This document shows, one piece after another, positions 42,954-64,000 of a stretch of 64,000 bases of DNA. Origin of the DNA: Chitinophagaceae bacterium (GTDB taxonomy: Bacteria; Bacteroidota; Bacteroidia; Chitinophagales; Chitinophagaceae); the NCBI GenBank assembly GCA_017307735.1, contig JAFKGR010000004.1:124001-188000 (forward strand), written 5' to 3'. The position numbers and the translations under genes were made by a program. The notes beneath the pieces were generated by a model. That model saw nothing but the letters and a program-made list of their open reading frames with translations. It made no database searches and was not told where the DNA came from. Within the stretch, counting starts at the first letter, position 1, and each line of letters starts with the position of its first letter.

Positions 42954-44282
42954 ATGAAGTTAGTTAATATTCACAAACATGTTTTAACTCTGATAATCCT
43001 GTTAGGCTGGAATACGCTCCACGCGCAGGATGTATGGACATTGCAGCAATGCACCGACTCTGCGAAAGTATATAACAAGAGCCTGCAGATTAACCGAAAC
43101 AATGTTACATCGGGCGAGGAAAGAGAAAAAGAAGCGAAAGCAAATCTGAACCCCAAAATTTCTGCAGTGGCAGACTATAAATATTTTTTGGAATTGCCGC
43201 ATCAGTTGATGCCGATGAATATTTTCAATCCAACCGTTCCTGAAGGACAATATAAAGATGTGCAATTCGGTGTGCCGCATACCATTAATGCCAGCGCTCA
43301 ACTGACCATGCCCTTGTTTAATCCTCAGATAAAAGGAGCTATTGAAAATGCTAAAACAGCGTCTGAACTGACCAGACTTCAATACCGGAAAACAGAAGAG
43401 CAGGTTTCGTATGATGTGGCCACACTTTATTACAACGCACAATTGCTGATCCATCAATTAGAGTTTATTGACAGCAACCTGGTGAATACAAATAAACTGG
43501 TGAAAAATATGCAATTGCTCCATGAACAATTACTGGCCAAAGGTTCTGATGTGAATAAAGTGAAACTTCAGGCAGACCAACTTTCCACCCAACGAGATAA
43601 TGTAAACAACAAACTGGTGCAGGTGTTAAATGCCTTGAAACTGGCTATGGGCGTTGATTTGGAACGAAATATCATGGTGGAAAAGGATATTCATTTTCAG
43701 ACAGCCATTCAGTACGATACCAAAACCATAACAGACCTGGATTTATTAAGTACTCAGCATAAATTATTGAATAACGAATTAAAAGTACTCAACAAATCAT
43801 CGTATCTGCCATCCATTAGTTTGATAGCGTCTTACGGTACATCTGGTTTCGGATACGACAAAAAGCCGAACAGTTTTCTCAAATTTTATCCGGTAGGTTT
43901 TGCCGGTGTACAATTGACCTATCCTATTTTCAACGGTGGAATTACGAAGAGAAAAATCAATCAGAAAAACATAGAAATCAGAAACAACGAGTTGCAGTCT
44001 CAACTAATCGCTGACAAGAATAAAATGGAGATTGAAAATGTGAGCAGGGAGCGGCTCATAGCTGAGAAAACACTTACCAATACGGAGAGCCAAATCATTC
44101 AGGCACAGACTATTTACAATCAGACGGTATTGCAACAAAGAGAAGGAACAGCAAATCTGACAGAAGTGCTGATGGCAGATAATGCATTGAGAGAAGCCCA
44201 ACAGAATTATTTGTCGGCAGCAATTGATTATCTGAAAGCGGATCTGGAGTTGAAGAAGATAACGGGAAATCTTATCAATTGA
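42954..44282 (+). CDS. TolC-family outer-membrane efflux protein
   Basis: 442 residues with a signal peptide (MKLVNIHKHVLTLIILLGWNTLHAQ). The two TolC repeats are visible: WTLQQCTDSAKVYNKSLQINRNNVTSGEEREKEAKANLNPKISAVADYKYF and the second-half counterpart near KSSYLPSISLIASYGTSGFGY, with long coiled-coil stretches between. It forms the outer-membrane channel of the tripartite pump built with the next genes. The last residues LIN and the TGA stop lie at the start of a heptanucleotide repeat array, so the C-terminus may have been trimmed or extended by repeat slippage. Confidence 0.93.
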   Translation: MKLVNIHKHVLTLIILLGWNTLHAQDVWTLQQCTDSAKVYNKSLQINRNNVTSGEEREKEAKANLNPKISAVADYKYFLELPHQLMPMNIFNPTVPEGQYKDVQFGVPHTINASAQLTMPLFNPQIKGAIENAKTASELTRLQYRKTEEQVSYDVATLYYNAQLLIHQLEFIDSNLVNTNKLVKNMQLLHEQLLAKGSDVNKVKLQADQLSTQRDNVNNKLVQVLNALKLAMGVDLERNIMVEKDIHFQTAIQYDTKTITDLDLLSTQHKLLNNELKVLNKSSYLPSISLIASYGTSGFGYDKKPNSFLKFYPVGFAGVQLTYPIFNGGITKRKINQKNIEIRNNELQSQLIADKNKMEIENVSRERLIAEKTLTNTESQIIQAQTIYNQTVLQQREGTANLTEVLMADNALREAQQNYLSAAIDYLKADLELKKITGNLIN

Positions 44283-44325
44283 GAATTGAGAATTAAGAAT
44301 TAAAAATTACGAATTACGAATTACG
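44277..44325 (+). repeat. Heptanucleotide array at the tolC-like gene end
   Basis: Seven 7-base units: AATTGAG twice, AATTAAG, AATTAAA, AATTACG three times. The stop codon of the tolC-like gene (44280-44282) is inside the first unit. Confidence 0.85.
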
Positions 44326-44342
44326 ATAGTAAAATTTAAGAG

Positions 44343-45401
44343 ATGAAACTAAAACGAATTATCTGGATAACAATTGGAGTGGCGCTTGTTGCGGCCATGA
44401 TACTCAAATTAAAGAGTAACAAAGACACTACTCAGGAGATGGTATATCACTATGACAAAGAAAAGCCCATCATGGTGGGTGTGGACACCATAAGAATAAT
44501 CAGCATTGATGACAGTAATGTTTACACGGGAACTTTTGAACCGAATAAAGAAACTAAAATCAGTTCGGAAGTTCAGGGAAAAATCAATTCTATTTTGGTG
44601 GATTTGGGAAATTACGTTAGCAAAGGACAGCCGCTGATTCAACTGGATAATTCATTGCTGAAACTTCAACTGCAAAGTGTGGAGGTGCAGATTGAAGGAT
44701 TGGAAGACGATGTAAAAAGGTTCACGATACTGACCCGGGCTGATGCGGTGCAGGGAGTTCAGTTGGAGAAAGCAATGCTGGGTTTAAAATCTGCAAAAGT
44801 CCAGAAAGCTACATTAATAGAACAGATTAGCAAAACCACCATCAGAGCGCCTTTCAATGGAGTAGTTACTGCCAAGCTCAACGAGGAAGGTGCCTTTGCA
44901 GCACCCGGCATTCCGCTGTTGCAAATTACAGATATTTCCAATCTCAGATTTACCGTTAATGTTCCCGAAAACGATTTGAATAAATTCCAATCAGGACGTA
45001 ATTACAGTGTTTCGGCTGATGTTTTCCCCGGCACTGAACTTTCCGGCAGGGTGGCGATGATAGGCAGCAAAGCCAACATCGGGAACAGTTTCCCGGTGCA
45101 GTTGCGGGTTGCCAATACCAAAAATCTGAGTATTAAATCCGGCATGTTTGGCAAGGTTAAGCTAACCTCCGGAAAGGGAGAAAAAGGAATTCTGATTCCT
45201 TCTTCAGCCATCATGGAATCCGGAGGGAAACCACAAGTGTATCTGGTAAAAGACGGAAAGGCAATGATACATGATGTGACAATCTCAAGAAACCTCGGCA
45301 ATCAATCAGTAGTTTCAGGTGGCTTGCAGGAAGGAGATGTGATCATTACTTCAGGCTTCATCAATTTATCAAGTGGGATGAATGTTTCAATTGAGAATTA
45401 A
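44343..45401 (+). CDS. RND periplasmic adaptor (membrane fusion protein, HlyD/AcrA family)
   Basis: 352 residues: an N-terminal membrane anchor (about residues 4-21, no lipobox), then the lipoyl half-motifs (KISSEVQGKINSILVDLGNYVSKGQPLIQLD and TTIRAPFNGVVTAKLNEEGAFAAPGIPLLQI), a short helical hairpin, and the beta-barrel and membrane-proximal domains (LVKDGKAMIHDVTISRNLGNQSVVSGGLQEGDVIITSGFINLSSGMNVSIEN). It bridges the RND pump and the TolC channel. The final codons ATT GAG AAT TAA are themselves part of a heptanucleotide array. Confidence 0.93.
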   Translation: MKLKRIIWITIGVALVAAMILKLKSNKDTTQEMVYHYDKEKPIMVGVDTIRIISIDDSNVYTGTFEPNKETKISSEVQGKINSILVDLGNYVSKGQPLIQLDNSLLKLQLQSVEVQIEGLEDDVKRFTILTRADAVQGVQLEKAMLGLKSAKVQKATLIEQISKTTIRAPFNGVVTAKLNEEGAFAAPGIPLLQITDISNLRFTVNVPENDLNKFQSGRNYSVSADVFPGTELSGRVAMIGSKANIGNSFPVQLRVANTKNLSIKSGMFGKVKLTSGKGEKGILIPSSAIMESGGKPQVYLVKDGKAMIHDVTISRNLGNQSVVSGGLQEGDVIITSGFINLSSGMNVSIEN

Positions 45402-45420
45402 GAATTAAAAATTAAAAATT
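45389..45420 (+). repeat. Heptanucleotide array at the adaptor gene end
   Basis: Units AATTGAG, AATTAAG, AATTAAA, AATTAAA, then a partial AATT. The TAA stop of the adaptor gene (45399-45401) is inside the second unit. Confidence 0.85.
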
Positions 45421-45426
45421 ATTTTT

Positions 45427-45804
45427 ATGAAAGAGAATATCATCCAACAAAAAAGCTCTGTTTTTGCAATCAAAATTATTGAAACATTCAAATTTCTTCA
45501 AACAGAAAAAAAGGAATTTGTATTGTCAAAACAGTTGCTAAAATCCGGAACAGGCATGGGTGCAAAACTGGAAGAAGTAACTTATGGGCAATCTAAAGAA
45601 GACTTCATCAACCGGATTTCTGTTGCTTATCAAAAAGCCTGTGAAACAAAATATTGGATCAAACTACTGATGGCTTCTGAATACCTGGAAAGAAGAGAGG
45701 CAGATACGCTTCTGGATGAGACAAATGAGTTTTGTGAAATCCTTTCATTAATCCTGTTGACAGTAAATAAAAACCATTATCAATTTTTGATAACCAATTC
45801 TTGA
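45427..45804 (+). CDS. Four-helix-bundle protein (S23/IVP family)
   Basis: 125 residues that match the four-helix-bundle family first known from proteins encoded in 23S rRNA intervening sequences. Features: FAIKIIETFKFLQTEKKEFVLSKQLLKSGTGMGAKLEEVTYGQSKEDFINRISVAYQKACETKYWIKLLMASEYL. The function of the family is unknown; members form pentameric bundles. Here the gene lies between the adaptor and the pump genes of an efflux operon, 25 bases after the adaptor stop and 24 before the pump start. It looks like an insertion into the operon. Confidence 0.85.
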   Translation: MKENIIQQKSSVFAIKIIETFKFLQTEKKEFVLSKQLLKSGTGMGAKLEEVTYGQSKEDFINRISVAYQKACETKYWIKLLMASEYLERREADTLLDETNEFCEILSLILLTVNKNHYQFLITNS

Positions 45805-48800: not shown

Positions 48801-48972
48801 GGCTATCGGGATGCTTCCGATTGCATTGGCAACGGGTACTTCGGCAGAATGGAAGAATGCGCTTGCCTGGGTAATTATTGGCGGTTTGCTGTCGTCATTG
48901 GCGTTGACAGTCTTTTTGGTTCCGATGGTGTATTATGTGGTGGACACTGTCAAATTAAGAATTAAAAAATAA
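45829..48972 (+). CDS. RND-family multidrug/metal efflux pump (AcrB/HAE1 type)
   Basis: 1047 residues, full-length for the family, with the N-terminal helix MNLTEISIKRPSLIIVLFSLFTLLGIIGY and two large periplasmic loops. Proton-relay residues are present: the Asp pair in TM4 (GVLVDDATVVLENI) and the Lys in TM10 (GLVTKNSILIVDF). It is the inner-membrane proton-driven component of the TolC-adaptor-RND pump; the HAE subfamily suggests organic compounds rather than metals. Residues about 635-648 (RLKIKNEKQETKNE) come from a 42-bp heptameric array within the second periplasmic loop. The C-terminal LRIKK and the stop lie in another array. Confidence 0.95.
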   Translation: MNLTEISIKRPSLIIVLFSLFTLLGIIGYQNLSYELMPDFNQPVVVINTLYPGAEPNEVETSVSRKIEDALSNLEGVDYLVTKSLPNASIIIANLKYGTDLDKTMQDAQRYIDNIRKDLPADIQNPVMSKVSPNDLPIMSVSATSNFKPTEFYQKLKDDYLPQIQQLKGVAEITILGGEEREIQVKVNKDKLKLYKISLYQVVEAINHSGIDLPSGKIQTDKESNSVRLVGKFTNVNDIKNVQVAMPVPGSPVYVKDVADVVDGIKEVSSVSRYNGKNGIGLLIKKQGDANAVDVSKLIRKKFQEIEKNNASSEVKFVITDDSTDNTIAAVNSVVHDLILAVILVSIVMLLFLRSFRNSLIVAVAIPTSLVTAFGMMWLLGYTLNLMTLLAMSLVIGVLVDDATVVLENIQRHLDMGKEKRKAAMDGRMEIGYSAVSITLVDVVVFLPILFLQVFVADMLKQFSVVIITTVLTSLLVGFTLTPWLASRIGKKEDLKPSNFFNRFLLWFEHQLNTFISWYGRKLDWVLSHKLIFTAIVLLLFAGTAVMMKQGIVGKELIATGDQGKFQLALEFDKGTALEQNNLVSEKIEHYILQQPEVAALFSNVGGPSTGIGSLGVGMANKTEFTIQLKTKDERLKIKNEKQETKNEISGNDWVNESTETFMRRLRDSLQKDYSGINFSMMALGLIPRTAPIEITLSGNSLNQVLATGQQMKLAIEKIPGADNVRLSVEAGSPELKVVPDKDRMQRLGLSTSYVGMNLRTAFTGNDDATMTDAGTEYPVRIWLDKFNRQNYEDVKQLYVVNPMGAPVEVSQFATIEKDNSPSLLERKDRQPAVTLTADALGRPSGTVADDVVSYVKENPLPAGIQMAWGSDIKRQNDSFGALGSVLLISFILIYLIMVALYDSYIYPFVALFGIPVAAIGAFLALNLSLSHISLFALLGMIMLMGLVTKNSILIVDFTNQLKAEGKPFREAIIHASMGRMRPIMMTTLSMAIGMLPIALATGTSAEWKNALAWVIIGGLLSSLALTVFLVPMVYYVVDTVKLRIKK
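47731..47772 (+). repeat. In-frame heptanucleotide array inside the RND pump gene
   Basis: Six degenerate 7-base units of the type AGATTAA, AAATTAA, AAACGAG, AAACAAG, AAACGAA, AAATGAA. They encode a very hydrophilic stretch in the second periplasmic region. 42 bases equals 14 codons, so the reading frame is kept. Confidence 0.65.
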
Positions 48973-49008
48973 GAAATAAGAATTAAAAATTTAGAATTAG
49001 GGATTACG
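48953..49008 (+). repeat. Heptanucleotide array at the RND gene end
   Basis: Eight units: AATTAAG, AATTAAA, AAATAAG twice, AATTAAA, AATTTAG, AATTAGG, GATTACG. The TAA stop of the pump gene (48970-48972) lies in the third unit and the residues LRIKK are encoded by the first two. Confidence 0.8.
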
Positions 49009-49035
49009 GAAGTGAAAAACTAAAAACAAAAAGTG

Positions 49036-49288: not shown

Positions 49289-50263
49289 ATGAAAAAAACA
49301 ATCGCAAATATTATTTTCCTGATGCTTTTATCTGCTACTGTTTCTGCGCAGAAAGTAAATGAGGGTTCTTATTTCAGTCTGATGTCTGAAAACGATTTAT
49401 ATAGTTTTCCCGGAGGAAATACCGACCGGTATTATACCAATGGATTGCGGTTGGATTATTTTTTTTCAAAGAAGAAATTTCAATTCCCTTCCACCTTATT
49501 GCTGAAAATTTCTGATGATAAAAATGTCTTCGGCTGGGGACTGGCCCAATACATGTTCACTCCCTCAAGGATTGACATTCAGACCGTTCAATACGACGAC
49601 CGTCCCTATGCCGGAGCACTATTTGGCATTCATTCTTTAAGTTCCTATGATTATGAAAAGAAAATAAAACTGAGGTCTGAAATTTATTTTGGAGTGATGG
49701 GGCCGCTTAGCCTTGCCGAAGAAGCACAGACCACCGTCCATAAATTGATCAATTCGCCTCATCCGGAAGGATGGCAGAATCAGGTTCCCAATGATGTGGT
49801 TGTTAATTATAATCTTCATCTGGAAAAAGAAATAATATATGTACCTGAAAAAATTTTGGTAACCGGGAATATGGAAACATTCGCAGGTACGCTTTATGAT
49901 GCAATGGGAGCCGGATTTTCAGTTAAAATAGGAAGGATTAAAAATTATCTGGAAAAAAATGACAGAATGGAAAGCAAACCAAAATCACAGATTTATGTAG
50001 TATTAAAGCCCACTGTCAGAATTATATATTTCAATGCACTTTTGCAGGGAGGGATTATAACCAACATTTCGGGTACACATAAGGGTTATACATTAGATAA
50101 AGACCAGATAGAAAGAATCAATGTATTTACCGAAGCGGGAATTACTTATGAACGTCCGGGGATGAGTATTTCGCTGCTTCAAAAAATGAGGTCAGCTCCC
50201 TTCAAAGGCGGGAATGCACTGGAGTATGGAAGTGTTGCGGTAGCGTTTAGAATTAAGAGTTAA
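49289..50263 (+). CDS. LpxR-like lipid A deacylase family protein (DUF2219)
   Basis: 324 residues with a signal peptide (MKKTIANIIFLMLLSATVSAQ). The family hallmark is present: SLMSENDLYSFPGGNTDRYYTNGLRLDYF (about residues 28-58), then GWGLAQYMFTPSRI and DRPYAGALFGIHSL, as in the LpxR outer-membrane barrel that removes the 3'-acyloxyacyl group of lipid A. The catalytic His and Ser positions cannot be checked without an alignment. The function may be remodelling of lipid A in response to drugs, which would suit the efflux neighbours. The last codons (AGA ATT AAG AGT TAA) are part of a heptanucleotide array. Confidence 0.8.
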   Translation: MKKTIANIIFLMLLSATVSAQKVNEGSYFSLMSENDLYSFPGGNTDRYYTNGLRLDYFFSKKKFQFPSTLLLKISDDKNVFGWGLAQYMFTPSRIDIQTVQYDDRPYAGALFGIHSLSSYDYEKKIKLRSEIYFGVMGPLSLAEEAQTTVHKLINSPHPEGWQNQVPNDVVVNYNLHLEKEIIYVPEKILVTGNMETFAGTLYDAMGAGFSVKIGRIKNYLEKNDRMESKPKSQIYVVLKPTVRIIYFNALLQGGIITNISGTHKGYTLDKDQIERINVFTEAGITYERPGMSISLLQKMRSAPFKGGNALEYGSVAVAFRIKS

Positions 50264-50298
50264 GAATTAAGAATTAAGAATTAAAATCACGAATTACG
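50251..50298 (+). repeat. Heptanucleotide array at the LpxR-like gene end
   Basis: AATTAAG, AGTTAAG, AATTAAG twice, AATTAAA, a 6-base unit, AATTACG. The stop codon (50261-50263) lies inside the second unit. Confidence 0.8.
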
Positions 50299-50339
50299 AA
50301 TTGGGGGAGTGAAAAACTAAAAACTAAAGACTAAAAGAT

Positions 50340-53891: not shown

Positions 53892-54173
53892 AGGTATATA
53901 TTTTTTTTAATTAAAAAAATGGGTATAAAAATATATTGAACGTGTTAAAAGTGCAAGCCCCGGGGAAATGATTTTATAAAAATTTACTATTGCAATGCTT
54001 TCGTTGGCTGCAAGGTCCAGGCAGGTAAATAAAACCGGTTTGAAAACAAGGGTAAAATCAATGAATGGAGAAATCGGATTGTCCTAACGACAATACAAAA
54101 AGTATAACGGAAAACTATTGGGAATCAATGACAATAATTTCTGTATAATTGTGTAGGATAACATAAATGAAAA
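53892..54173. other. AT-rich spacer left of the cassette region
   Basis: No gene is seen. A palindromic AT tract (T8-AATT-A7 type, about 53902-53920) lies just before the DUF4382 gene. The right part leads into the inverted repeat at 54174. Confidence 0.4.
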
Positions 54174-54825
54174 TGTTGTAGGCAATGCGAACCGACATTA
54201 TGAAGCGATTAACAATTCTATTCTTTTCAATCTCTTTAATCAGTTGCAACCAAAATACACAGACACAAAATGACAATATGCTCAAGTTCTCAGACAAAAG
54301 AAATTATGCGACAGAACTAATTGACAACGGTTTTTTAAAATATGCAGACAGTTCAAAGGTTGACAGTTTAAAAACTCAGCTCAGAGATTCATTTAATATT
54401 TATGAAGACGACAATTTCAAAATAGCTCACATTGACGCCGAAGAACTTGCTGAATTCAGCTTTGACTTTTTTCTTCCAAGTTTGAATAGGATTTTAGCCA
54501 AAAGAGACGTTCAACTTTCGGTTAAAAAACTAAACGATGATGATAAATCGTTTGACGTTTTAATAAATGACGATACAATTCAACTTTACACTCAACAAGA
54601 TTTAAACAACAATACATTTTGGGACGCAGCTTCAAGAAATTTCTTTAGAAAATTAAACGAGCTTTTGAAAGCAAAAAATCACGACGAGCAATTTTATTTG
54701 CTTTATGGCGGTAACGACTTGCACACAATGCTTCTGACAGACAAACAGTTTTCAATTATAGCCGACTACTATAAAAAAAGTATTAAGGAGACACCCTATA
54801 AACCATGACAGCACTGCCTACAACA
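54174..54825 (+). mobile_element. Single-gene cassette bounded by 14-bp inverted repeats
   Basis: TGTTGTAGGCAATG (54174-54187) and CACTGCCTACAACA (54812-54825) are inverted repeats that differ at one base. Between them is only one gene, whose chosen ATG lies 12 bases inside the left repeat and whose stop lies 3 bases before the right one. The ends belong to the same family as the ends of the large segment 55011-63957. No transposase or integrase is inside. I infer a mobile cassette; mobility is not shown by the sequence. Confidence 0.5.
54200..54808 (+). CDS. Small lipoprotein of unknown function (cassette gene)
   Basis: 202 residues from the ATG at 54200, chosen because it opens a lipoprotein signal peptide (MKRLTILFFSISLISCNQN, lipobox LISC). 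An in-frame ATG at 54185 lies inside the terminal inverted repeat and adds five residues. I do not recognise the mature protein. It is acidic and helical, with EDDNFKIAHIDAEELAEFSFDFFLPSLNRILAKR and FWDAASRNFFRKLNELL, and a C-terminal FYLLYGGNDLHTMLLTDKQFSII. The base composition is AT-rich like the segment to the right. It is the only gene of its cassette. Confidence 0.7.
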   Translation: MKRLTILFFSISLISCNQNTQTQNDNMLKFSDKRNYATELIDNGFLKYADSSKVDSLKTQLRDSFNIYEDDNFKIAHIDAEELAEFSFDFFLPSLNRILAKRDVQLSVKKLNDDDKSFDVLINDDTIQLYTQQDLNNNTFWDAASRNFFRKLNELLKAKNHDEQFYLLYGGNDLHTMLLTDKQFSIIADYYKKSIKETPYKP

Positions 54826-55025
54826 TTCGCATTGGCAATAGCTGGGGGTGACGTGCATTTCATCAGCTTTTTGTTCGCTATTTAGCTGTAGTTCCGGGCT
54901 GAAAATTATCTATTAAGCAACAGAATAAAAATCTCAACTTTTTGTTCGTTTACTGGGCAGACGTTCCGGCAGAAAGTTATAAATTGCCCAGCCATCGCCA
55001 ATGCGTGGCCGTTATAGCCAATGGT
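54812..55025. repeat. Long imperfect palindrome between the two cassettes (attC-like in plan)
   Basis: About 214 bases. The outer boxes are CACTGCCTACAACA on the left and GTTATAGCCAATG on the right. Inside them CGCATTGGC (54828-54836) is the exact reverse complement of GCCAATGCG (54997-55005), and AATAGCTGGG (54837-54846) pairs with CCCAGCCATC (54987-54996) at 8 of 10 positions, the other two being G-T type. The centre holds two related modules (54865-54923 and 54936-54991) that share CTTTTTGTTCG and GTTCCGG; the second is closed by a perfect 7-bp stem CTGGGCA/TGCCCAG. The plan resembles large integron attC sites, but the boxes do not fit the RYYYAAC/GTTRRRY core. Confidence 0.6.
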
Positions 55026-55042
55026 AGGACGACCGTGCAAAC

Positions 55043-55329
55043 AACGAACAGACGAACAAAATTTAAAAAGTAAAACTAAGATAAACCATTTTGAAAAGTG
55101 AACAACATACAGACCATATTACAAACGGACAACGATTAAGCCGACACTCATTGCCTACCCCTATGTTTTTTATTTTTTTCCAACGCACATTTTTTAAAAA
55201 CAATTTTAGCCAATCGCACATTGGCACATTTGGTTTTGCCCCGACACGCAAAGCCAACACTTCGCAAAACCAAAAGAGCCAATTTTCCAACGCTCAATTT
55301 TGTTACATTAGTAATCCTGAATTTTAATT
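55043..55329. other. Structured leader or upstream region of the helicase gene
   Basis: No gene. It contains CAACATACAGACCA (55103-55116) and AGCCGACACTCATTGCC (55139-55155), both of which recur near the other end of the cassette. It also holds the hairpin set listed next and a CAATTTTG box (55294-55301) that may be the -7 element of the operon. Confidence 0.4.
55209..55283 (+). promoter_or_regulatory. Alternative hairpins upstream of the helicase gene
   Basis: GCCAAT (55209-55214) can pair with ATTGGC (55220-55225) over a 5-base loop. The same ATTGGC can instead pair with GCCAAT at 55278-55283, enclosing a second perfect 8-bp stem GGTTTTGC (55232-55239) / GCAAAACC (55264-55271) with 6-base internal loops on both sides. 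The two folds exclude each other. If the promoter is the CAATTTTG box at 55294, this region is not transcribed and would act as DNA. Confidence 0.45.
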
Positions 55330-58300
55330 ATGGCAGAATTTAATCGCAGACCTGAAACCAATAACATTTTTGAGGGAACTTCTGATGAAGTAATCGTAAT
55401 CACATTACGAGTCAAAGATGATTTTGCTCAACAGTACAATAATAATTCAAGCAATGAAATCCAATTTGAAAATTTATTGAATCAAATTGCTGAAAATAAC
55501 ATTGTGTGTTTGTTTCAGAAACAAAAAGAATTTTTAAACAAAGACAAAACTACTGGTGCTGTTAAAAAAAGTTCTACCCATAAAATTATAATTCCGTTAG
55601 GTAACGAAACTGCCATTGAAGGAACATTAGCACTTTTTCAAGACGAATATTCGTACAGAGTTGTGAAATTGAAACAGGTAAAACTGTTCAATGAGCCAAT
55701 AAAAAATACAATCAGAAGAAATTGTAACCTAACATTTCGAGGTTTCAATGATTATCGTGGCTTTGTATCTTCTGAAAAATTCAAAGAATTGTATGAGCAA
55801 ATAGAAAATTTACAAATCCCATTAATTGACATCAACAAAGAAAAAGACCGTCAAATTTGGGAAAAGTATGTTGTTGCTTTAAAGAAGTTAGTTAAACAAA
55901 AAGAACAAGTTTGGAAAATCCAAAACATTAAAATGCCTTATGCAGAAGCAAGACAAGGCGAAGCGGAAAGAGCAAACTATATTGATATTTTCATCAATGA
56001 AACAGAACTAAGAGAACAACTTGAAAAAGACATTTTAGGGTTATTCAATGAAAGCGAATTGGAAGATTACGGAGTAAGTGAAAACAAAGCGTTTATTGAG
56101 TTCAAAAATTACAGAGAATTAGGGCAAGAAGAATTGAACCAACTCAAAGAGTTGGGAGATGAATTATTTTACGAAATTTCAAATAATTCGCCATTTCACA
56201 CCATTTCGGGAAAAATTGATTTCAAGTATGCCGACAACGTTTCAAAAGAAGATATTTATGCTGAAATACAAGACAAACTGCAAGCAGAGTATGAACTTGA
56301 ATGTTCAATCAGCAATGACGGTTACATTGACCTTAACGAAAATGATATTCCGCATTTGCAAAAAATCGTTGCAGACAATTATTCTCATATTCTCTCGGTT
56401 CACAAAGACAATGTTGTTCAGTTAAAAGTTGATTTCAAAGCGGACAATGAATTACCAAAAATATCACAATCAATAAAACAAGAATTAAATAGTCTTGGAC
56501 ATACAAATTCTAATGTTTCTATTTCTAATGAAAAAAATATTGTTGTTGAAATAGCAGTGCCTTTATTTGAGCAATTTGGAGTTTTGTCTGTATTCCAAAA
56601 GGGAATGCCAGCAACAAAATTACCGTTATCGGATATTAAAATTGAAAAGTCTATTCTTAGGTTCTCAACCAATCAACGTTTAAATTTTAAAGAAATAAAA
56701 GGTTTTGAATTTGTTGCTGGAAATTATCAAATAACCAACCCAACAAAAGAACAAATTCAAAATTCTCAATCAATACTTGAAAATGAATTTAGAGGAATAC
56801 GATTTCGAAGAATGCCAAATTTATACTATTTGAAATCTCTTGAAAAAGTAAATCTCGAAACGCTTCGCAACTTTAGAACACAAACTAATTTACAAGGAAA
56901 AACAGAATTTGTTTTAGCAAGTTCAACACTTAAAATTTCAGCAGAAAATAATACAGATTACGAAAACCAATTAAAACGTATCAAACAACAGTTTCCGAGT
57001 GCAACTATTGAAGAAAAGCCATTTAATCCGACATATCAAATTGTGTTCGATACAGATGTTGAATCAAAACGGCAAAACGTAATCAACAAAATTCAAAATG
57101 AAATCAGAAAAGAAATTGGCAAATCGGCTGATTTTGATGTTGTAAAAAAACATACCAGAATTTTATTTTCTTATCAATTCAAAACAGATGACGAAAGAGA
57201 TTTATTTAAACAAGCGGTGTTAACCGCTTGTTCAGAACATCGTCATATTTTGAATTTTACTTTTGAAAATCCATTAGGAAGAACAACCTACGAACTTTTC
57301 AAAAATGAAACGCTTGAACTTGAAAAGGAAAAAGAAGTGAGACGGAACATTAGCCAAGCTACATTTATTTACTTGAGTCCAGAGCAAAGAAAAAATTTAA
57401 GTGAAAAAATTGAGCAGTTCGGAGAAGAAGCTATTTTCAAAGAAGGCATACAAATAGGAAGATTAGTAAAAAAGGAAAAAGACAGGTTGAAATTCAAAAT
57501 AACTGATGCTTTTGATGAAATCATTAACGGACGAGAGCAAGACCGTATTGAATTAAGTGAAATCCGAAAAGGTTTTATCAAACCTATTTTCCCAGGAGAA
57601 CTAACAAACATTGGTAGAATGATTCGGGCAATGAAAAAAGTTACCGAACCAAATACAAGAAACGGCTTTCCTATCAATCAAAACTTGCCAAACTTTTTAT
57701 TTGACCCAAATGAAGCAAGACAATCATCAACAGACCTTGAAGAAGAAAAACAAAAAGTTGTTCAGAATCTGAATGAACCTTTGCTTAAAGACCAACCAAA
57801 ACAACTTGAAGCTGTTGCAAAAACGCTTTTAGCAAAAGATTTGGCACTTATTCAAGGTCCGCCCGGAACAGGAAAAACAACTGTAATTGCTGAAATAATT
57901 TGGCAAACACTTTTGCGAGAACCAAAAGCGAAATTGTTGATTACATCGCAAACAAACCTTGCAGTTGATAATGCTTTGGAACGTATTAAAGGTAAAAAAT
58001 TAGTGCGACCAATTCGTGTTGGAAATATTGACAAATTTGAGGATGAGGGAAAAGTTTATTCCAATGACCGAATCAAAAATTGGATTCAGGCAAAGACTGG
58101 TTCAAAGGAAGAAAAACAATATTCCGATAATGCCGTTTGTCAATGGATTGAAAACGTAAAAGATAAATGTAGTAAAGATGAAAAATACGCAAAAGCAGTT
58201 TCCAAATGGAAAAAAGGTTTAGTTGAAAAAGACGTATTGATTAAATCAACTTTTTCAAATGCCTACTACGAATATGTGAACGTATTTGCAGCAACGTGTA

Positions 58301-59406
58301 GCGAATGTGGTAGCCGAAATTTTGGCGACACTTATCAAATGACATTCAACCAACATTCAGAAAGAAAAAGCGAACCTGAATTTGATTTGGTAATAATGGA
58401 TGAGGCAAGTAAAGCAACGCCACCCGAATTGGTTTTGCCTTTAACATTAGGAAAAAAGGTTGTGATAATTGGCGACCATAAACAGTTGCCACCAATGATT
58501 GACGAAAAAGAATTTGGCGAAGCATTAGAAGCAGTTGGAGCAAAAAAACTGATTGAGGATTGGACAAAAGAAGATTACAAGGTTTCGCAATTTGAAAAAT
58601 TATTCAAAAATGCACCGAATAACTTTGTTGCGAGTTTGGATACTCAATTCAGAATGCACGAACAAATTATGAATTGTATTTCCGAGTTCTATTCTGACCA
58701 AGAAGAATTGGAAAATGGTTTGATATGCGGAATTAAAGGCGAAATGAACATTGCCGACTTCAATGTAAAAGCAAGTCGTTGGCACGGTTTAAACATTCCT
58801 CCTTTAATAACTCATGACATACACGCTATTTGGGTAAATGTTGAAACACCCGAAGATAAAGTTGGAACATCTTACGAAAATGAAGGCGAAATCAAAGCCA
58901 TTCAAACTGTTCTGAGAGCATTAACCAAAGCCGAAGGATTTGAACAATATCAAAATCATTTCAAAAAAGACGAGGACAAAGAAATAGGAATCATTACTTA
59001 CTATATGCCACAAATGCAAAGCATACGAAAAGCAATGTATCCACATTTTTCAAAAAATGAATGGCGAAATTTTGAGCAACATAAATTTGAAAACGAATTT
59101 CAACTTCCACTTAGAATAAATACCGTTGACCGTTTTCAAGGAATGGAGCGAAATATCATTATCATTTCAACGGTAAGAAGCAACAAACAATACAAAGAAG
59201 AAAGGGGAAAGAAAATTCCGATTGACAATGTCGCATTAGGTTTTGCAAGAGAATTGCAACGTATCAATGTTGGTTTTTCAAGAGCAAAAAGATTGCTGAT
59301 TGTAGTTGGAAATCAAAAACACTTTTCACGTAAACCTGAATATCAACAAGCAATTCAAAAAATGCACCCAATTGACATTGCACAAATTCAAAATCTTATT
59401 AAGTAG
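55330..59406 (+). CDS. Large SF1 helicase, UPF1-like (COG1112 type), first gene of the cassette operon
   Basis: 1358 residues. The motor is in the C-terminal third: Walker A GPPGTGKTT from residue 843, motif Ia SQTNLAVDNALERI, motif II MDEAS (D1024) with PPELVLPLTLGKKVVIIGDHKQLPPM as motif III, DTQFRMHEQI as motif IV, VDRFQGMERNIIIISTVRSN as motif V and NVGFSRAKRLLIVVGN (about 1313) as motif VI. These fit the AAA_11/AAA_12 UPF1-like family that unwinds RNA or DNA 5' to 3'. Residues 1-840 match no domain I know; segments near 310-360, 370-410 and 560-640 look like repeated small alpha-beta modules. The stop TAG shares its last base with the GTG start of the next gene. Confidence 0.88.
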   Translation: MAEFNRRPETNNIFEGTSDEVIVITLRVKDDFAQQYNNNSSNEIQFENLLNQIAENNIVCLFQKQKEFLNKDKTTGAVKKSSTHKIIIPLGNETAIEGTLALFQDEYSYRVVKLKQVKLFNEPIKNTIRRNCNLTFRGFNDYRGFVSSEKFKELYEQIENLQIPLIDINKEKDRQIWEKYVVALKKLVKQKEQVWKIQNIKMPYAEARQGEAERANYIDIFINETELREQLEKDILGLFNESELEDYGVSENKAFIEFKNYRELGQEELNQLKELGDELFYEISNNSPFHTISGKIDFKYADNVSKEDIYAEIQDKLQAEYELECSISNDGYIDLNENDIPHLQKIVADNYSHILSVHKDNVVQLKVDFKADNELPKISQSIKQELNSLGHTNSNVSISNEKNIVVEIAVPLFEQFGVLSVFQKGMPATKLPLSDIKIEKSILRFSTNQRLNFKEIKGFEFVAGNYQITNPTKEQIQNSQSILENEFRGIRFRRMPNLYYLKSLEKVNLETLRNFRTQTNLQGKTEFVLASSTLKISAENNTDYENQLKRIKQQFPSATIEEKPFNPTYQIVFDTDVESKRQNVINKIQNEIRKEIGKSADFDVVKKHTRILFSYQFKTDDERDLFKQAVLTACSEHRHILNFTFENPLGRTTYELFKNETLELEKEKEVRRNISQATFIYLSPEQRKNLSEKIEQFGEEAIFKEGIQIGRLVKKEKDRLKFKITDAFDEIINGREQDRIELSEIRKGFIKPIFPGELTNIGRMIRAMKKVTEPNTRNGFPINQNLPNFLFDPNEARQSSTDLEEEKQKVVQNLNEPLLKDQPKQLEAVAKTLLAKDLALIQGPPGTGKTTVIAEIIWQTLLREPKAKLLITSQTNLAVDNALERIKGKKLVRPIRVGNIDKFEDEGKVYSNDRIKNWIQAKTGSKEEKQYSDNAVCQWIENVKDKCSKDEKYAKAVSKWKKGLVEKDVLIKSTFSNAYYEYVNVFAATCSECGSRNFGDTYQMTFNQHSERKSEPEFDLVIMDEASKATPPELVLPLTLGKKVVIIGDHKQLPPMIDEKEFGEALEAVGAKKLIEDWTKEDYKVSQFEKLFKNAPNNFVASLDTQFRMHEQIMNCISEFYSDQEELENGLICGIKGEMNIADFNVKASRWHGLNIPPLITHDIHAIWVNVETPEDKVGTSYENEGEIKAIQTVLRALTKAEGFEQYQNHFKKDEDKEIGIITYYMPQMQSIRKAMYPHFSKNEWRNFEQHKFENEFQLPLRINTVDRFQGMERNIIIISTVRSNKQYKEERGKKIPIDNVALGFARELQRINVGFSRAKRLLIVVGNQKHFSRKPEYQQAIQKMHPIDIAQIQNLIK

Positions 59407-61490
59407 TGAAGAAACGATTATCTAAAATAGCGAGAGATTTTAAAAGCAACATTCCTGTTGTTGTTGAATTTTTGCGTGTAAATGGTTACGAATGTGAGGA
59501 AGACCCCGAAGTGGAATTTTCAAGTGAAGTAGTTGAATTTATTGAAAATAATTTTCCTGCATTTCTATCAGAACGCAACAAAGAGAATCAAAAACAAGCA
59601 CCAAAAAAGAAAGAAAAAAGCAGTGATTCTATTCTAAGCGAACAAATTCCTTTGGAATTAAAAATCATTGAATCGGCAAGCAAAGAGAAAAAACTAATTG
59701 AGAGAATTATTGGTTTTACAGAGTTTGACTGGCATTACACTATTGCAAAATTCAAAGGCACTTGTTCACAGCCCGTTGATTTCAACTTGTTTGATGAAGT
59801 TCTTTGCGACTTGCTTTTGACCGAACAAATGTCGGCTGAAAAAATCGGAAACATTCTCGGTTTTGACATTCAAAAAGACCCAGCCGAAAATGATATTCTT
59901 CTAAAAGCAATCAATGATTTGAAAGCAGATAAAATGCTTGACGGAGATGAAAGTATTTTATGGCTTACTGATGTCGGTATTGAATACGCAAAAAATGGTG
60001 TGAAATTCTCAACATTTACAAGAGATTTTGATTTGTATGTTGATAATATTGGTGTTGCAAAAGAAAAAGTAAAAGAGATTTTCAGTAACCTGAAAAGTGA
60101 AAAGCAAGCTACATTCAGCAAAGATTTTCTTCCAAAAAATAGTGAAGAAGTAAAGCCATTAGCAGAATTACAAGCACCTGAAATTCATTTCCCAAAAAAG
60201 AATTTTTTGTTGCAAGAATGTACCCCAACAGGTGCGGAAGGATATAAAGCAAAAGTTTGGGTTGTGTTGTTAGAAAATTTCAGAGATAACACAATGCGGG
60301 CAATCGTCTATGACGAAAAGCAAAATAAAGTGATTGATGCTTTATCCGAAGCATTGGACAAACAAGATGAAATAAAAGCCGAATTACTTGAACGTTTAGT
60401 AAAAGTTGATGATGAAATTGAATTTACTAATGAAGAAAAGCAAAAAGAACAGGTTGAAATTGAACAAGCGTTAATTCATAAACAAGAAGAAATTGACGAA
60501 GCGATAAACAACCAAGACACAACCAAAATAAAAGAAATAGAAAAAGAAGTTGAATCAATCAAAAGACATTTCAACTCTTTGGAATTTGAAGTTGAATTGA
60601 AAAAACTCTTTGACACAACTTCCGACACAATTTTAATTCAAAGTCCTTGGGTTCGTGATTTTGCTTTCAAAAATAGAGTTCCGTTTATCAAAGATTATTT
60701 GCGTAAAGGCGGTAGAGTTTACATTGCATATTCCGAAAATGAAAGTTTTGGAGGCGAAGATATGGTTCAAGAAGAATCAAAGAAACTGCTTGCAGAATTA
60801 GACAAGAATTTGAATTTCTATTGTTGTGAATTGCCAGCATTTCATTACAAAAACGTTTGGTTGGTAAAGGAAGATAACAAGAATAGTTACTATTCGGGCA
60901 GTTACAATATTCTTTCATTCTTTGTTCATCAGAATATGAAAAATGTTCGTCAAGAAAAAATGACGAGAATGGATTGGGACAGCGAATTAGAAGAACAATA
61001 TTTTGAGGTTTTCAAAAAGTTTGGATTGAAGTACATCAATTCGGCAATAGAAGATTTTAATACACTTTGTAATAACCCACCAACAAAAATTGACAGAGAT
61101 TATTTGCAAAAACTACGAACTGTTGATAACAGTAAATTAAAGCCATTTAAAGGAATTGGAGTTGAAGAATTTGACGGAGCTTTAGCTTCACTTGAAAATA
61201 CTAAAACTGAAAATCTCAATTATTATCGAAAAATATTTTTTGAAAACGAAATAGAACGATTTGAAAAACAGGTAAATGAACTTTCACAAAAACCAATTTC
61301 AATAGACAGAAAGAAAAATCTGCAAAAAGAATTTGAAAAGGTTAGAGATGAATTTGTTGATTTACTTGATTTGCAAATGAATAAAGCAAAAGATGTAACG
61401 GATATAATAAATAACTTAAAGGTTTTCAGTCCACAAAACCACCAAAAACAGCATAACCACAACCACAATAAAAACAAAAAGAGAAGATAA
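59406..61490 (+). CDS. PLD-like protein with an IF2-N-like head, cassette operon gene 2
   Basis: 694 residues from a GTG that overlaps the helicase stop by one base. Residues 1-50 (KKRLSKIARDFKSNIPVVVEFLRVNGYECEEDPEVEFSSEVVEFI) resemble the IF-2 N-terminal domain that begins Bacteroidetes translation factor IF2. The middle is helical with a strongly charged coiled coil (about residues 325-400). A phospholipase D-like region starts near 405 (TILIQSPWVRDFAFKNRVPFIKDYLRKGGRVYIAYSE). The HKD motif appears once as H480-Y-K482, but the Asp expected five residues after the Lys is Val; D490 is shifted. GSYN (498-501) replaces the GSxN tail. It could be a dimeric nuclease or an altered one. Confidence 0.75.
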   Translation: MKKRLSKIARDFKSNIPVVVEFLRVNGYECEEDPEVEFSSEVVEFIENNFPAFLSERNKENQKQAPKKKEKSSDSILSEQIPLELKIIESASKEKKLIERIIGFTEFDWHYTIAKFKGTCSQPVDFNLFDEVLCDLLLTEQMSAEKIGNILGFDIQKDPAENDILLKAINDLKADKMLDGDESILWLTDVGIEYAKNGVKFSTFTRDFDLYVDNIGVAKEKVKEIFSNLKSEKQATFSKDFLPKNSEEVKPLAELQAPEIHFPKKNFLLQECTPTGAEGYKAKVWVVLLENFRDNTMRAIVYDEKQNKVIDALSEALDKQDEIKAELLERLVKVDDEIEFTNEEKQKEQVEIEQALIHKQEEIDEAINNQDTTKIKEIEKEVESIKRHFNSLEFEVELKKLFDTTSDTILIQSPWVRDFAFKNRVPFIKDYLRKGGRVYIAYSENESFGGEDMVQEESKKLLAELDKNLNFYCCELPAFHYKNVWLVKEDNKNSYYSGSYNILSFFVHQNMKNVRQEKMTRMDWDSELEEQYFEVFKKFGLKYINSAIEDFNTLCNNPPTKIDRDYLQKLRTVDNSKLKPFKGIGVEEFDGALASLENTKTENLNYYRKIFFENEIERFEKQVNELSQKPISIDRKKNLQKEFEKVRDEFVDLLDLQMNKAKDVTDIINNLKVFSPQNHQKQHNHNHNKNKKRR

Positions 61491-61492
61491 TT

Positions 61493-62122
61493 ATGTCGTG
61501 TTTTGAATCATCAACTTTTTTGAAAAATCCTGATGTAATGAATCAGGAAATTCTTATTTCAGCTTGCGACAAGTTGGGTTGGAAATATTCTGCAACAGCA
61601 AATGAACTAACCGTTTTTCAATTGAACTCAAATGAAAATTTGAGAGGAGAATATGCAATGAAAATTATCGGTAACAAAGTTACTTACAACACTTACTATT
61701 TGCAGAACGCCAAAAGTAAAGTTCAGGAATTGCAAAACACATTTTACGATTTGAATGTAAAATATGCAGAGGAATCAATAATTCGTGAGTTTAAAAAGCA
61801 AGGTTGGACTTTTAAGAGCAATGATAAATTCAAAGCAAATGAAAACGAAAAAGTGAGTTTTTATATGGTTGGACGGAGCAAATTAAAAGAAGAAACCGAG
61901 CCAATTTCGCAAATAAAATTTACGATTTTTAAAGATGGTTCGGTTAAAACAGATAGCGACTACATTCCAAAAGACATTCACGAATTAGCCGACAAAGCAA
62001 TGGAATCATTGGAAAGTATTTTTGGAAACAAAAGAGAAATTAACGGAAAAGAAATTCCATTGAAATATAAACACAAAACATTTTGCGAAAGCAAGAAAAC
62101 AATCTCAATTACTAAAAAATAA
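61493..62122 (+). CDS. DUF1257 (Ycf35-like) protein with a DUF2997-like tail, cassette operon gene 3
   Basis: 209 residues, starting 2 bases after the PLD gene stop. Residues about 1-120 follow the DUF1257/Ycf35 pattern: FLKNPDVMNQEILISACDKLGWKYSATANELTVFQ ... KVQELQNTFYDLNVKYAEESIIREFKKQGWTF. Residues about 137-180 (ISQIKFTIFKDGSVKTDSDYIPKDIHELADKAMESLES) resemble DUF2997, a small protein often encoded next to DUF1257 in bacteria, so this looks like a fusion. The function of these families is unknown. Its TAA stop overlaps the ATG of the AAA+ gene by one base, as expected for a tightly coupled Ycf35-Ycf46 pair. The family call is from memory of the pattern. Confidence 0.6.
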   Translation: MSCFESSTFLKNPDVMNQEILISACDKLGWKYSATANELTVFQLNSNENLRGEYAMKIIGNKVTYNTYYLQNAKSKVQELQNTFYDLNVKYAEESIIREFKKQGWTFKSNDKFKANENEKVSFYMVGRSKLKEETEPISQIKFTIFKDGSVKTDSDYIPKDIHELADKAMESLESIFGNKREINGKEIPLKYKHKTFCESKKTISITKK

Positions 62123-63726
62123 TGGCACAGATAACAAAAAACAATACCGATACATTTGGGCAAATTCAAGATATGCTAAAAGCATACTACCCGATTTTAT
62201 ACTTGACAACTTTTGAGTATGACCGAACGAAACAAAAATTGAGAGGTGTTGCGAAAAATCTCAACAAAAATTTTCAATTCTACGAATGGAATTGCGTTGA
62301 TGGCTTGGGTAAAAGAGATTTGAACGAGGGTGGACTTACGCCATTTGAAAACGTTGAAGAACCCGAACAACTTTTAAAACACATTTCTAATCAAACAGAA
62401 AAAGACGATAACGAAATTTATGTTCTTGAAGATTTTCACGACTTTATTTCCGAAAGAAATATCAAAATTCAATTACGCCAATTAGCTGAAAAATTGAGAT
62501 TTTACAGAAAGCATATCATTATTGTTTCTTCTGTTTTAAACTTACCTATTGAGTTAGAAAAATACATTACCGTTCTTGAAATGCCGTTACCGGGCAGAGT
62601 TGATTTGGAAATTGTTTTGAATACAGTTTCCAAAAATGCTAAAAAAGAAATCGACAACGACCTTAAAAAGAAACTTATTGATTCTGCATTAGGAATGACC
62701 GTTATGGAAGCGGATTTAGCTTATTGTCTTGCCGCAGTAAAAGACGAATTTGGAATCAATTCACCAAGAACAGTTGCTTTTGAAAAAGAGCAAATCATCA
62801 AAAAAAGCGGATTGCTTGATTACTTTCAAGTAAATGAAAGTTTGAAAAGTGTTGGAGGAATGAATAATCTGAAAGATTGGTTAGAGAAACGTAAACAAGC
62901 ATTTGATTTCAAAGCACAAACTTGGGGACTTGCAGAACCAAAAGGGCTTTTACTTTTAGGTGTGCCGGGCTGCGGAAAAAGTTTGACAGCAAAATGTATC
63001 GCTTCACTTTGGAATATGCCTTTGTTACGACTTGATATTGGTAAAGTTTTTCAAGGAGAAGTTGGAAGTAGTGAAAGCAATATTCGTAGGGCTATTGCAA
63101 CAGCCGAAGCGGTTGCACCTTGTGTTTTATGGATTGACGAAATTGAAAAAGGACTTTCAGGAGTTCAAAGTAGCGGAGCGACAGACGGAGGAACAACCTC
63201 ACGGATTTTTTCAACTATTTTGACTTGGATGCAAGAAAAAACACAACCTGTTTTTGTTGTGGCAACAGCAAACGACATTTCTCAATTACCACCCGAACTT
63301 TTACGCAAAGGACGATTTGATGAAATATTTTTCGTTGACCTTCCTTCGGAAGAAGATAGAAAAAGTATTTTCTCTATTCACTTGACAAAAAACAACCAAA
63401 AACCCGAAAATTTCGGACTTGACAAATTAGCAAAAGAATCGAAAGGTTTCAATGGTGCTGAAATTGAAGAATGTGTCAAAGAAGCAATGTTTTCAGCATA
63501 TACCGATAATCCAAACGAACCCAAATTGCAAATACTTCATTTGCTAAATTCAATAAAAGACACAGTTCCGCTTTCCAAGACAATGAAAGACCAAATTGAA
63601 TTTTTACGCAAGTGGGCTAACAGCAGAGCGAAACAAGCAGGGCAACTAAACAACGAAGATTTGAAAACCGATGAAGAAGTTCCATTGACAAAAGTGGAAA
63701 AAGAACTGAACAGAAGTTTTGACTAA
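62122..63726 (+). CDS. Ycf46-like AAA+ ATPase, cassette operon gene 4
   Basis: 534 residues. The C-terminal AAA+ module is complete: GLLLLGVPGCGKSLTAK (Walker A from G280), ESNIRRAIATAEAVAPCVLWIDEIEKGLSG (Walker B, D339-E340), sensor 1 FVVATANDISQLPPELLRKGRFDEIFFVDLP with the arginine finger region, and sensor 2 KESKGFNGAEIEECVKEA. Residues 1-250 form the degenerate ATPase-like half typical of Ycf46 (YYPILYLTTFEYDR, EIYVLEDFHDFIS, LEKYITVLEMPLPGR). Such proteins probably make hexameric rings that remodel an unknown client, here presumably the DUF1257 or PLD partner. The gene ends the operon; the right terminal repeats begin about 190 bases later. Confidence 0.85.
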   Translation: MAQITKNNTDTFGQIQDMLKAYYPILYLTTFEYDRTKQKLRGVAKNLNKNFQFYEWNCVDGLGKRDLNEGGLTPFENVEEPEQLLKHISNQTEKDDNEIYVLEDFHDFISERNIKIQLRQLAEKLRFYRKHIIIVSSVLNLPIELEKYITVLEMPLPGRVDLEIVLNTVSKNAKKEIDNDLKKKLIDSALGMTVMEADLAYCLAAVKDEFGINSPRTVAFEKEQIIKKSGLLDYFQVNESLKSVGGMNNLKDWLEKRKQAFDFKAQTWGLAEPKGLLLLGVPGCGKSLTAKCIASLWNMPLLRLDIGKVFQGEVGSSESNIRRAIATAEAVAPCVLWIDEIEKGLSGVQSSGATDGGTTSRIFSTILTWMQEKTQPVFVVATANDISQLPPELLRKGRFDEIFFVDLPSEEDRKSIFSIHLTKNNQKPENFGLDKLAKESKGFNGAEIEECVKEAMFSAYTDNPNEPKLQILHLLNSIKDTVPLSKTMKDQIEFLRKWANSRAKQAGQLNNEDLKTDEEVPLTKVEKELNRSFD

Positions 63727-64000
63727 GGGAAAGCTAACACTCAAAAGCAAGCACATTTGTAAACCGCACAATCCAACACACAGACCAAAGTTTGCAAAAG
63801 AACTTGCTTTTCGCCATCGCTGACAAAATTGTTTTTAAAAAATTTCCAACGCTTCAAAAAAATAAAAAACGCAACACACAGCCGACACTTAATGGCACGG
63901 AAACCTAATATTGACAATGGTTTGCAAGGACGACCGACAAGAACCACTGGCTATAACAAGGGTTTTGCAAGAGAGCGGGTTAAGTGCTTCGTTTCAAACT
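63727..64000. other. Right end of the four-gene cassette and start of the next palindromic element
   Basis: No gene. CAACACACAGACCA (63774-63787) and AGCCGACACTTAATGGC (63880-63896) repeat words from the left end of the cassette (55103, 55139) in direct orientation. GTTTGCA, AGGACGACCG and ACCACTGGCTATAAC form the terminal block 63920-63957. From 63946 the sequence aligns with the start of the palindrome at 54812 (CACTGSCTAYAACA, then TTkGCAA and GGG words). A further palindromic element therefore begins here and runs off the window. Confidence 0.5.

Follow-up and report, generated by a model that had tools for sequence, protein, structure and literature searches.

The window analysed here, a stretch of 64,000 nucleotides from a Chitinophagaceae bacterium (C17:124001-188000 of its genome, G000, which consists of 37 contigs), ends in an array of features (Table 1) that is best read as an attI-like leader followed by one cassette of 0.84 kb and most of another one of 9 kb. 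The four genes of the larger cassette form an operon (55330-63726) and may constitute a composite, undescribed defence system which travels as one 9-kb cassette.

Table 1. Features of the cassette array in the window (window coordinates; bracketed tokens stand for the sequences of boxes and arms)
Feature	Position	Strand	Basis
attI-like leader, ending in ...ATAACATAAATGAAAAT directly before the crossover GTT	54060-54174	+	Leader common to C1, C16, C29 and C12
R'-type box of cassette 1, GTTGTAGGC, with crossover G^TT	54175-54183	+	Exact complement of GCCTACAAC at 54816
Cassette 1, 836 bp	54176-55011	+	Own-end complementarity 9/9, GTT borders
ORF of cassette 1, 207 aa, without family match	54185-54808	+	
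attC-like site of the long class, the element studied here	54815-55019	+	Covariance-model limits; copies in the same genome
R''-type box GCCTACAAC, part of cassette 1	54816-54824	+	End-complementarity rule and letters
L''-type arm CGCATTGGC	54828-54836	+	Covariation of helix 2 and letters
L'-type arm GCCAATGCG	54997-55005	+	Covariation of helix 2 and letters
R'-type box GTTATAGCC, part of cassette 2	55011-55019	+	Exact complement of GGCTATAAC at 63949
Cassette 2, about 9 kb, its site ending at 64085, beyond the window	55012-64000	+	End complementarity 9/9
SF1 helicase-like protein, MkoA-like, cargo of cassette 2	55330-59406	+	Pfam AAA_11/AAA_12; PADLOC MkoA 2.4e-110
MkoB-like protein (weak match), cargo of cassette 2	59406-61490	+	PADLOC MkoB 4.6e-9
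Unknown protein, 209 aa, cargo of cassette 2	61493-62122	+	No match in family and PADLOC searches
AAA+ ATPase, IetA-like, cargo of cassette 2	62122-63726	+	Pfam AAA; PADLOC IetA 2e-25
Start of the next attC-like site, short class, with R'' GGCTATAAC at 63949-63957	63948-64000	+	Model R2, 34.5 bits; site cut by the window end

The element between the two cassettes has the architecture that the original prediction had described: the letters of the window contain nested complementary arms with a perfect 9-bp inner pair (CGCATTGGC/GCCAATGCG), separated from the outer boxes by 3 bases on one side and by 5 on the other, and inward of this pair there is a 4/4 internal loop followed by GCTGGG/CCCAGC. 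The limits set by the covariance model lie slightly inside the earlier-quoted 54812-55025, and the element scores 155 bits with model R1 (own genome) and 56.4 bits with model R2. It is not a product of chance, as follows from its further copies in the same genome (best E 4e-78, 92% over 201 bases) and from the matches of a model made from long elements in 136/195 genomes of the family; the genome searches scored at most 12 candidates of each genome in the family sample and at most 8 in that of the phylum. Contig C29 of the same genome harbors several copies in one array, each of them after an ORF. It had also been supposed that the same element begins again at 63946. The second copy is real, but it starts at 63948 and belongs to a shorter class, its full extent being 138 bp (G000:C17:187948-188085), so that it ends 85 bases past the window.

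An element's two outer boxes are parts of two neighbouring cassettes, and each box has its partner at the opposite end of the cassette to which it belongs. In the window the pairing is perfect: GCCTACAAC is complementary to GTTGTAGGC, and GTTATAGCC to GGCTATAAC, at 9/9 positions, in the latter case across 8.9 kb, and in the cassettes of contig C29 the end box is complementary to the first bases of the same cassette (GTTGGCAGC...GCTGCCAAC, GTTGGATGC...GCATCCAAC). This rule was measured, as the agreement over the six variable bases after GTT, on 95 elements from 26 oriented stretches of the same genome and its relatives, two of the 95 being left out for want of a readable box. The two ends of one cassette agreed at 6/6 positions in 59/75 cases and at 5/6 in six more (mean 5.44), whereas the two boxes of one element agreed on average at 2.99/6 (n = 93), the permuted mean being 2.81 (sd 0.12). 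Among the 16/75 cassettes that fall short of 6/6, ten score 4 or less, and six of these ten span gaps of more than 2 kb, in which a site may have been overlooked. Since the complementarity links the ends of one cassette and not the boxes of one element, the exchange should take place at G^TT, the right box of a site being part of the cassette that follows it; a G^TT boundary and an end box complementary to the start of its own unit are likewise part of the working principle of integrons.

A scan for such chains that makes no use of a model of the element revealed up to 14 cassettes in a row in real arrays, while 280 shuffled controls contained no chain of four or more, and chains of three in two of them. 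In genome G068 (L093) one cassette is present four times in one array, its bodies being 92.5-100% identical, the similarity starts at one CGTT and stops exactly at that of the site, and the neighbours of the four copies are unrelated. Such a pattern in the sequences points to recombination of cassettes as whole units.

A 103-bp leader block precedes the first cassette in the window (93% identity) and on contigs C1, C16 and C12 (99-100% identity). The block ends exactly at AAAAT|GTT, and four different cassettes then follow in the window, C1, C16 and C12. On C12 a tyrosine recombinase gene (66316-67527) and an SSB gene directly precede the leader, an arrangement that corresponds to the attI-type leader of integrons, located beside the integrase gene and joined to the first cassettes at GTT. 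In other genomes the first cassette starts 34-560 bases after the stop codon of the recombinase, and the leaders are mostly AT-rich, some of them having inverted repeats at the joint (as judged by eye). No recombinase gene is found beside the array of the window, and we therefore assume action in trans, the recombinase of contig C12 being the likely source of the enzyme.

Covariation within the stem was assessed separately for the two main size classes. The long-class alignment (A1) consists of the window element and 36 of the 46 elements chosen out of 71 full ones, i.e., of 37 elements; in it, 92.7% of the cells in the proposed helices are paired (65.6% in shuffles), 174 cells are doubly changed (68 in shuffles), and 13/15 pairs of the inner helix (helix 2) have changed on both sides. 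Thus, compensatory changes, whose lack among the copies had been named as grounds for giving up the original prediction, are abundant. The short-class alignment (A3), which includes 20/22 short elements of the family and nine named ones, gives 88.7% of cells paired vs. 68.2% after shuffling, and 96 double changes vs. 35. The sites come in sizes of about 202 bp, about 137 bp and 74 bp (L114:14117-14190), and they follow the attC-type plan, with R and L arms, unpaired spacers and a variable terminal part. Canonical attC has an extrahelical base in its L'' arm; here the nine L pairs are aligned without a bulge, bulges being located further in, and for some of the L pairs a T-G pairing occurs on the top strand alone. 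Reconstituted sites, exemplified by that of the window and by one short site, adopt a single long hairpin. Of the 58 folded sites, 39 are more stable as the bottom strand (p = 1e-4), which is a modest bias, and this strand comparison is the sole informative part of the folding, the 58 sites having been picked for perfect end pairing.

Recognition of a folded single strand is suggested by the fact that the paired letters vary freely without loss of perfect pairing, as would be expected if structure and not sequence is recognized. We use here by analogy the mechanism outlined for the folded bottom strand of attC in the part of PMC4792948 that concerns it: the site would be recognized as a folded single strand, and excised circles would insert at the leader, as they do in integrons. 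Alternatively, the element could serve as a double-stranded palindromic core site, similar to dif, used by the recombinase without any folding. This would agree with the XerA/XerH-like fold of the recombinase and with the absence from it of the IntI insertion, which is called essential for integron function in the part of PMC8138268 devoted to the integron-like subgroup of tyrosine recombinases. However, the outer box varies at its inner positions and is nevertheless self-complementary in each cassette, which binding to a duplex would not select for, and the spacers are asymmetric as in attC, so we regard a site of this kind as unlikely.

The recombinase of contig C12 is 403 aa long and has relatives in 73/195 genomes of the family (E<=1e-40). 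According to the original prediction, genomes with matches were to be searched for a tyrosine recombinase near an array, and such recombinases do adjoin the arrays: elements are present downstream of the gene in 17/20 loci of the relatives, while in the other three the contigs end at most 546 bp after it. All 145 element matches in oriented loci are on the recombinase strand; for arrays of G000 that have no recombinase the orientation was set by the leader or by the array itself. Downstream arrays were found, in particular, in the named loci of Flavobacterium aciduliphilum DSM 25663 (L114), Algoriphagus ornithinivorans DSM 15282 (L126), Winogradskyella ursingii (L112), Seonamhaeicola aphaedonensis (L120), Algibacter onchidii (L129) and Rufibacter sp. 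(L119). Altogether, 22 named Bacteroidota loci have at least 1.5 kb of sequence downstream, with an array in 15 of them and none in seven. The recombinase is divergent from the elements, beside them or on their other side in G126, G196, G014, G383 and G514. Among the named loci outside Bacteroidota, a match to R1 or R2 at E<=0.1 was obtained in L180 only; this locus, from Calditrichota, was set aside, as its recombinase is an IntI relative by the tree.

The association also holds at the level of genomes. In the family, elements occur in 69/73 genomes with the recombinase and in 67/122 without it (p = 5e-10; Fisher test, not corrected for kinship), and in the phylum in 99/115 and 82/280, respectively (odds ratio 15; Fisher test, also not corrected for kinship), while for canonical IntI and the elements in the phylum the odds ratio, with kinship likewise uncorrected, is 0.55. 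When the genomes are divided by type, elements are found in 12/77 of those with IntI only, 74/87 with the new recombinase only, 25/28 with both and 70/203 with neither. The short-class model has matches in 181/395 genomes of the phylum, distributed over 100/171 genera. The elements in the 70/203 genomes in which neither recombinase reaches the thresholds may be due to another enzyme or to gene loss. These genomes, together with the 67/122 of the family, are also in line with the view that sites of the integron type are run by some other recombinase (e.g., host XerC/D or IntI acting in trans) and that the neighbouring gene is incidental. We consider this to be very unlikely, however, because of the adjacency, the common orientation and the common leader, the odds ratios near 15 in two samples and the absence of a positive association with IntI. 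Most probably, the adjoining recombinase itself is the integrase: a tyrosine recombinase of a Bacteroidota-specific clade related to XerA and IntI, it would join cassettes at G^TT between the sites and the attI-like leader.

Two other candidates for a part in the system were rejected. SSB was considered as a conserved partner of the recombinase, but its gene is found in few loci only (C12 and L079; in L097 it precedes the recombinase, and in L085 it is on the opposite strand), and for this reason SSB is left outside the definition of the system. The recombinase that lies beside an element on contig C3, considered as a candidate for the integrase, belongs to an IS91-like two-gene element (L029:562-2990), where the tyrosine recombinase is followed by a Y2 transposase, and a diverged copy of the cassette-associated element adjoins it on the minus strand (562-763). 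This related recombinase also lacks the insertion; unlike the new family, it is paired with a Y2 transposase and occupies a far branch in the tree.

By the tests available, the new recombinase falls outside the IntI family. It has no counterpart of the insertion of about 25-30 residues that is present in the IntI shown (19 IntI of the phylum were aligned), and the IntI-specific additional domain (patch III) by which integrons are defined was not found in it. The NCBIfam model integrase_gron (TIGR02249) matches in two pieces with 181.9 bits, the cut-off being 265, and the XerA profile gives 214.8 against a cut-off of 220. Of 80 named loci, 66 were taken into the comparison and 65 gave a recombinase ORF; the tree includes 98 proteins, nine of 107 (fragments, frameshifts, fusions) having been left out. 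One branch of it (93/92) unites the IntI and four of their relatives, which come from Planctomycetota, Pseudomonadota and Calditrichota. Another grouping (47 rows, 85/92) contains the new recombinases and further homologues from Bacteroidota; in it, the 19 members of the family are one group with respect to the other labelled rows (100/94). The host's own XerC/D-like proteins (C32, C17) are located elsewhere in the tree, on long branches. The residues R, K, H, R, H and Y, which we take to be the catalytic ones, are invariant in the 19 recombinases.

For the structure predicted for the recombinase of Flavobacterium aciduliphilum (pLDDT 86.6, pTM 0.57), Foldseek gives IntI4 (2A3V) as the nearest one, and VIA-align gives XerA, IntI4 and XerH; since VIA-align barely covers residues 1-66 of the model, the fold comparison refers to the remaining part. 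The XerA/XerC-like recombinases of archaea (4A8E, 5HXY) are the best solved relatives by sequence, and they and XerH (5JJV) are among the top ones by fold. The Bacteroidota clade differs from XerA and XerH in being tied to cassette arrays and a leader; in addition, the Xer-like part of most of its members is preceded by an N-terminal region of about 60-110 residues.

The evidence favours the reading of the original prediction as an attC-like folded recombination site with boxes of a non-ordinary kind, and, going further, the element is with high probability the attC-like site that closes a cassette at its 3' end, within an integron-like platform that has a non-IntI integrase and is widespread in Bacteroidota. 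This platform shares with classical integrons one terminal palindromic site per cassette, the G^TT crossover, the end-to-end complementarity within the cassette, the attI-like leader, the unidirectional ORFs and the diverse accessory cargo. It differs from them in the recombinase, which lies outside the IntI clade and is devoid of the IntI insertion, in the sites, with their R' CGTTRNNNGY and a 9-bp L arm that is aligned without a bulge, and in the position of the recombinase gene, which is usually upstream of the array and co-directional with it, not divergent. The motif GTTRNNNGY is present in 73/93 new sites and in 5/37 canonical ones. The observation that the outer boxes fail RYYYAAC/GTTRRRY is correct, as 5/93 and 5/93 of them fit, but it is weak evidence: GTTRRRY fits 6/37 of the canonical sites next to true IntI in the phylum, and it was dropped as a discriminator because these canonical sites fail it too.

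The two kinds of sites were also compared by means of reciprocal covariance models. A canonical attC model, which represents 27 canonical sites from a few loci of the phylum and not all integrons, gave 85 matches at E<=0.1 on 19 canonical loci, as against 6 on 36 new-kind loci at E<=1, the best of them with 27.8 bits, and by this model the new sites do not belong to the canonical attC of the phylum. Model R2 gave 192 matches at E<=0.01 on the same 36 loci, a few of which represent the same site read, with a lower score, on the reverse strand, and five matches at E<=1e-4 on canonical loci, four of them in L202 and one in L192. L202, a canonical IntI locus, would seem to be a counterexample, but its short ORF at L202:5725-5997 resembles, by eye, the start of a new-type recombinase. 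The first cassette there starts at GTT inside this ORF, upstream of the canonical IntI locus, and it is possibly a cassette inserted into the recombinase gene; G199 also carries a relative of the new recombinase elsewhere.

One could still regard the array as that of an ordinary integron, namely as a CALIN (a cluster of attC sites that has no integrase) which belongs to the classical IntI system and whose attC sites are unusual, given that the logic and the general plan are the same, that canonical IntI is encoded in 105/395 genomes of the phylum and that R2 weakly matches canonical sites (34.6 bits for the best one outside L202). But IntI exceeds the cut-off in 1/195 genomes of the family, far from the 136/195 with elements, genomes with the new recombinase only contain elements more often than genomes with IntI only, and the canonical model behaves on the two sets of loci as described above, which makes this explanation highly improbable. 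In the sole genome of the family with IntI above the cut-off (L181, G172:C24:31071-31796) the copy has an in-frame stop. The transcription-ending spacer that had been offered as a second reading, i.e., a bidirectional terminator or an RNA structure common to neighbouring genes, would suit a long stem at the 3' end of a gene, but it can practically be dismissed, as there is no intrinsic terminator (GC stem and T-run) within the element, T-runs after elements are at the random level (6/93 vs. 25/465), no match to a known RNA family was found in Rfam, and both the kilobase-range end complementarity and the exact GTT-to-GTT duplication would be left without explanation.

Returning to the integron-like platform with its own integrase, we consider it likely that it represents a second integron lineage outside the IntI family, which would operate with a XerA/IntI-related recombinase devoid of the supposedly indispensable domain and with folded single-stranded sites. 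The position of this recombinase outside the IntI family is probably the reason why surveys of integrons have not reported the system. IntegronFinder, as set out in the relevant part of PMC9668308, calls IntI by PF00589 together with a profile of the IntI-specific domain, a requirement that would exclude the new family. The passages on Bacteroidetes in the paper on IntegronFinder 2.0 (PMC9024848) mention a complete integron from Salinibacter, only In0 having been known before, and PMC8618304 lists Bacteroidota among the phyla with integrons. For those members of the integron-like subgroup that have no insertion, the corresponding part of PMC8138268 describes no cassette system, unlike what we find in the new family. 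A search of the open-access literature, as far as its texts were accessible and with bioRxiv outside its scope, yielded no paper on such a system.

If the proposed interpretation is true, the capture of genes in the manner of integrons has arisen, or persists, in more than one lineage of recombinases, and the new family would provide a natural test of what the extra domain of IntI does. The sites are present in close to half of the sampled genomes of the phylum; the system would have been missed as the tools require the IntI domain, and common environmental bacteria would possess a large uncatalogued pool of mobile cassettes, including restriction systems, candidate defence operons and families of antibiotic-modifying enzymes.

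The cargo was surveyed in 90 cassettes, taken from exact-complement pairs and from seven named loci selected for having chains. The longest ORF is in the array direction in 87/89 cassettes with an ORF, and the median cassette body is 690 bp. The 86 cassette ORFs gave 37 Pfam families, the 25 listed being found in one ORF each; among the families are a HaeII-type restriction enzyme, C5 methylase, streptomycin adenylyltransferase, a beta-lactamase family, superoxide dismutase and cation efflux. Cassette 1 of Flavobacterium aciduliphilum (L114:11265-13293) looks like a complete HaeII-type restriction-modification pair; its two ORFs were included in the survey, and we take them to be the source of the two matches.

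One more feature of the genome concerns the leaders and the repeats. The same attI-like leader is present on at least five contigs (L098, L099, L009, L028 and the window; C1, C16, C29, C12 and C17), which suggests that the leaders themselves are copied. Upstream of the leader, C1 and C16 have a further 0.7 kb of repeat-rich sequence in common, and imperfect tandem and inverted repeats are located inside ORFs shortly before the C29 leader (L009:7627-8042). In the window, AT-rich repeats of the type GAATTAAGAATTAAAAATTA occupy intergenic gaps at 44272-44334, 45377-45439, 48934-49017 and 50232-50308.
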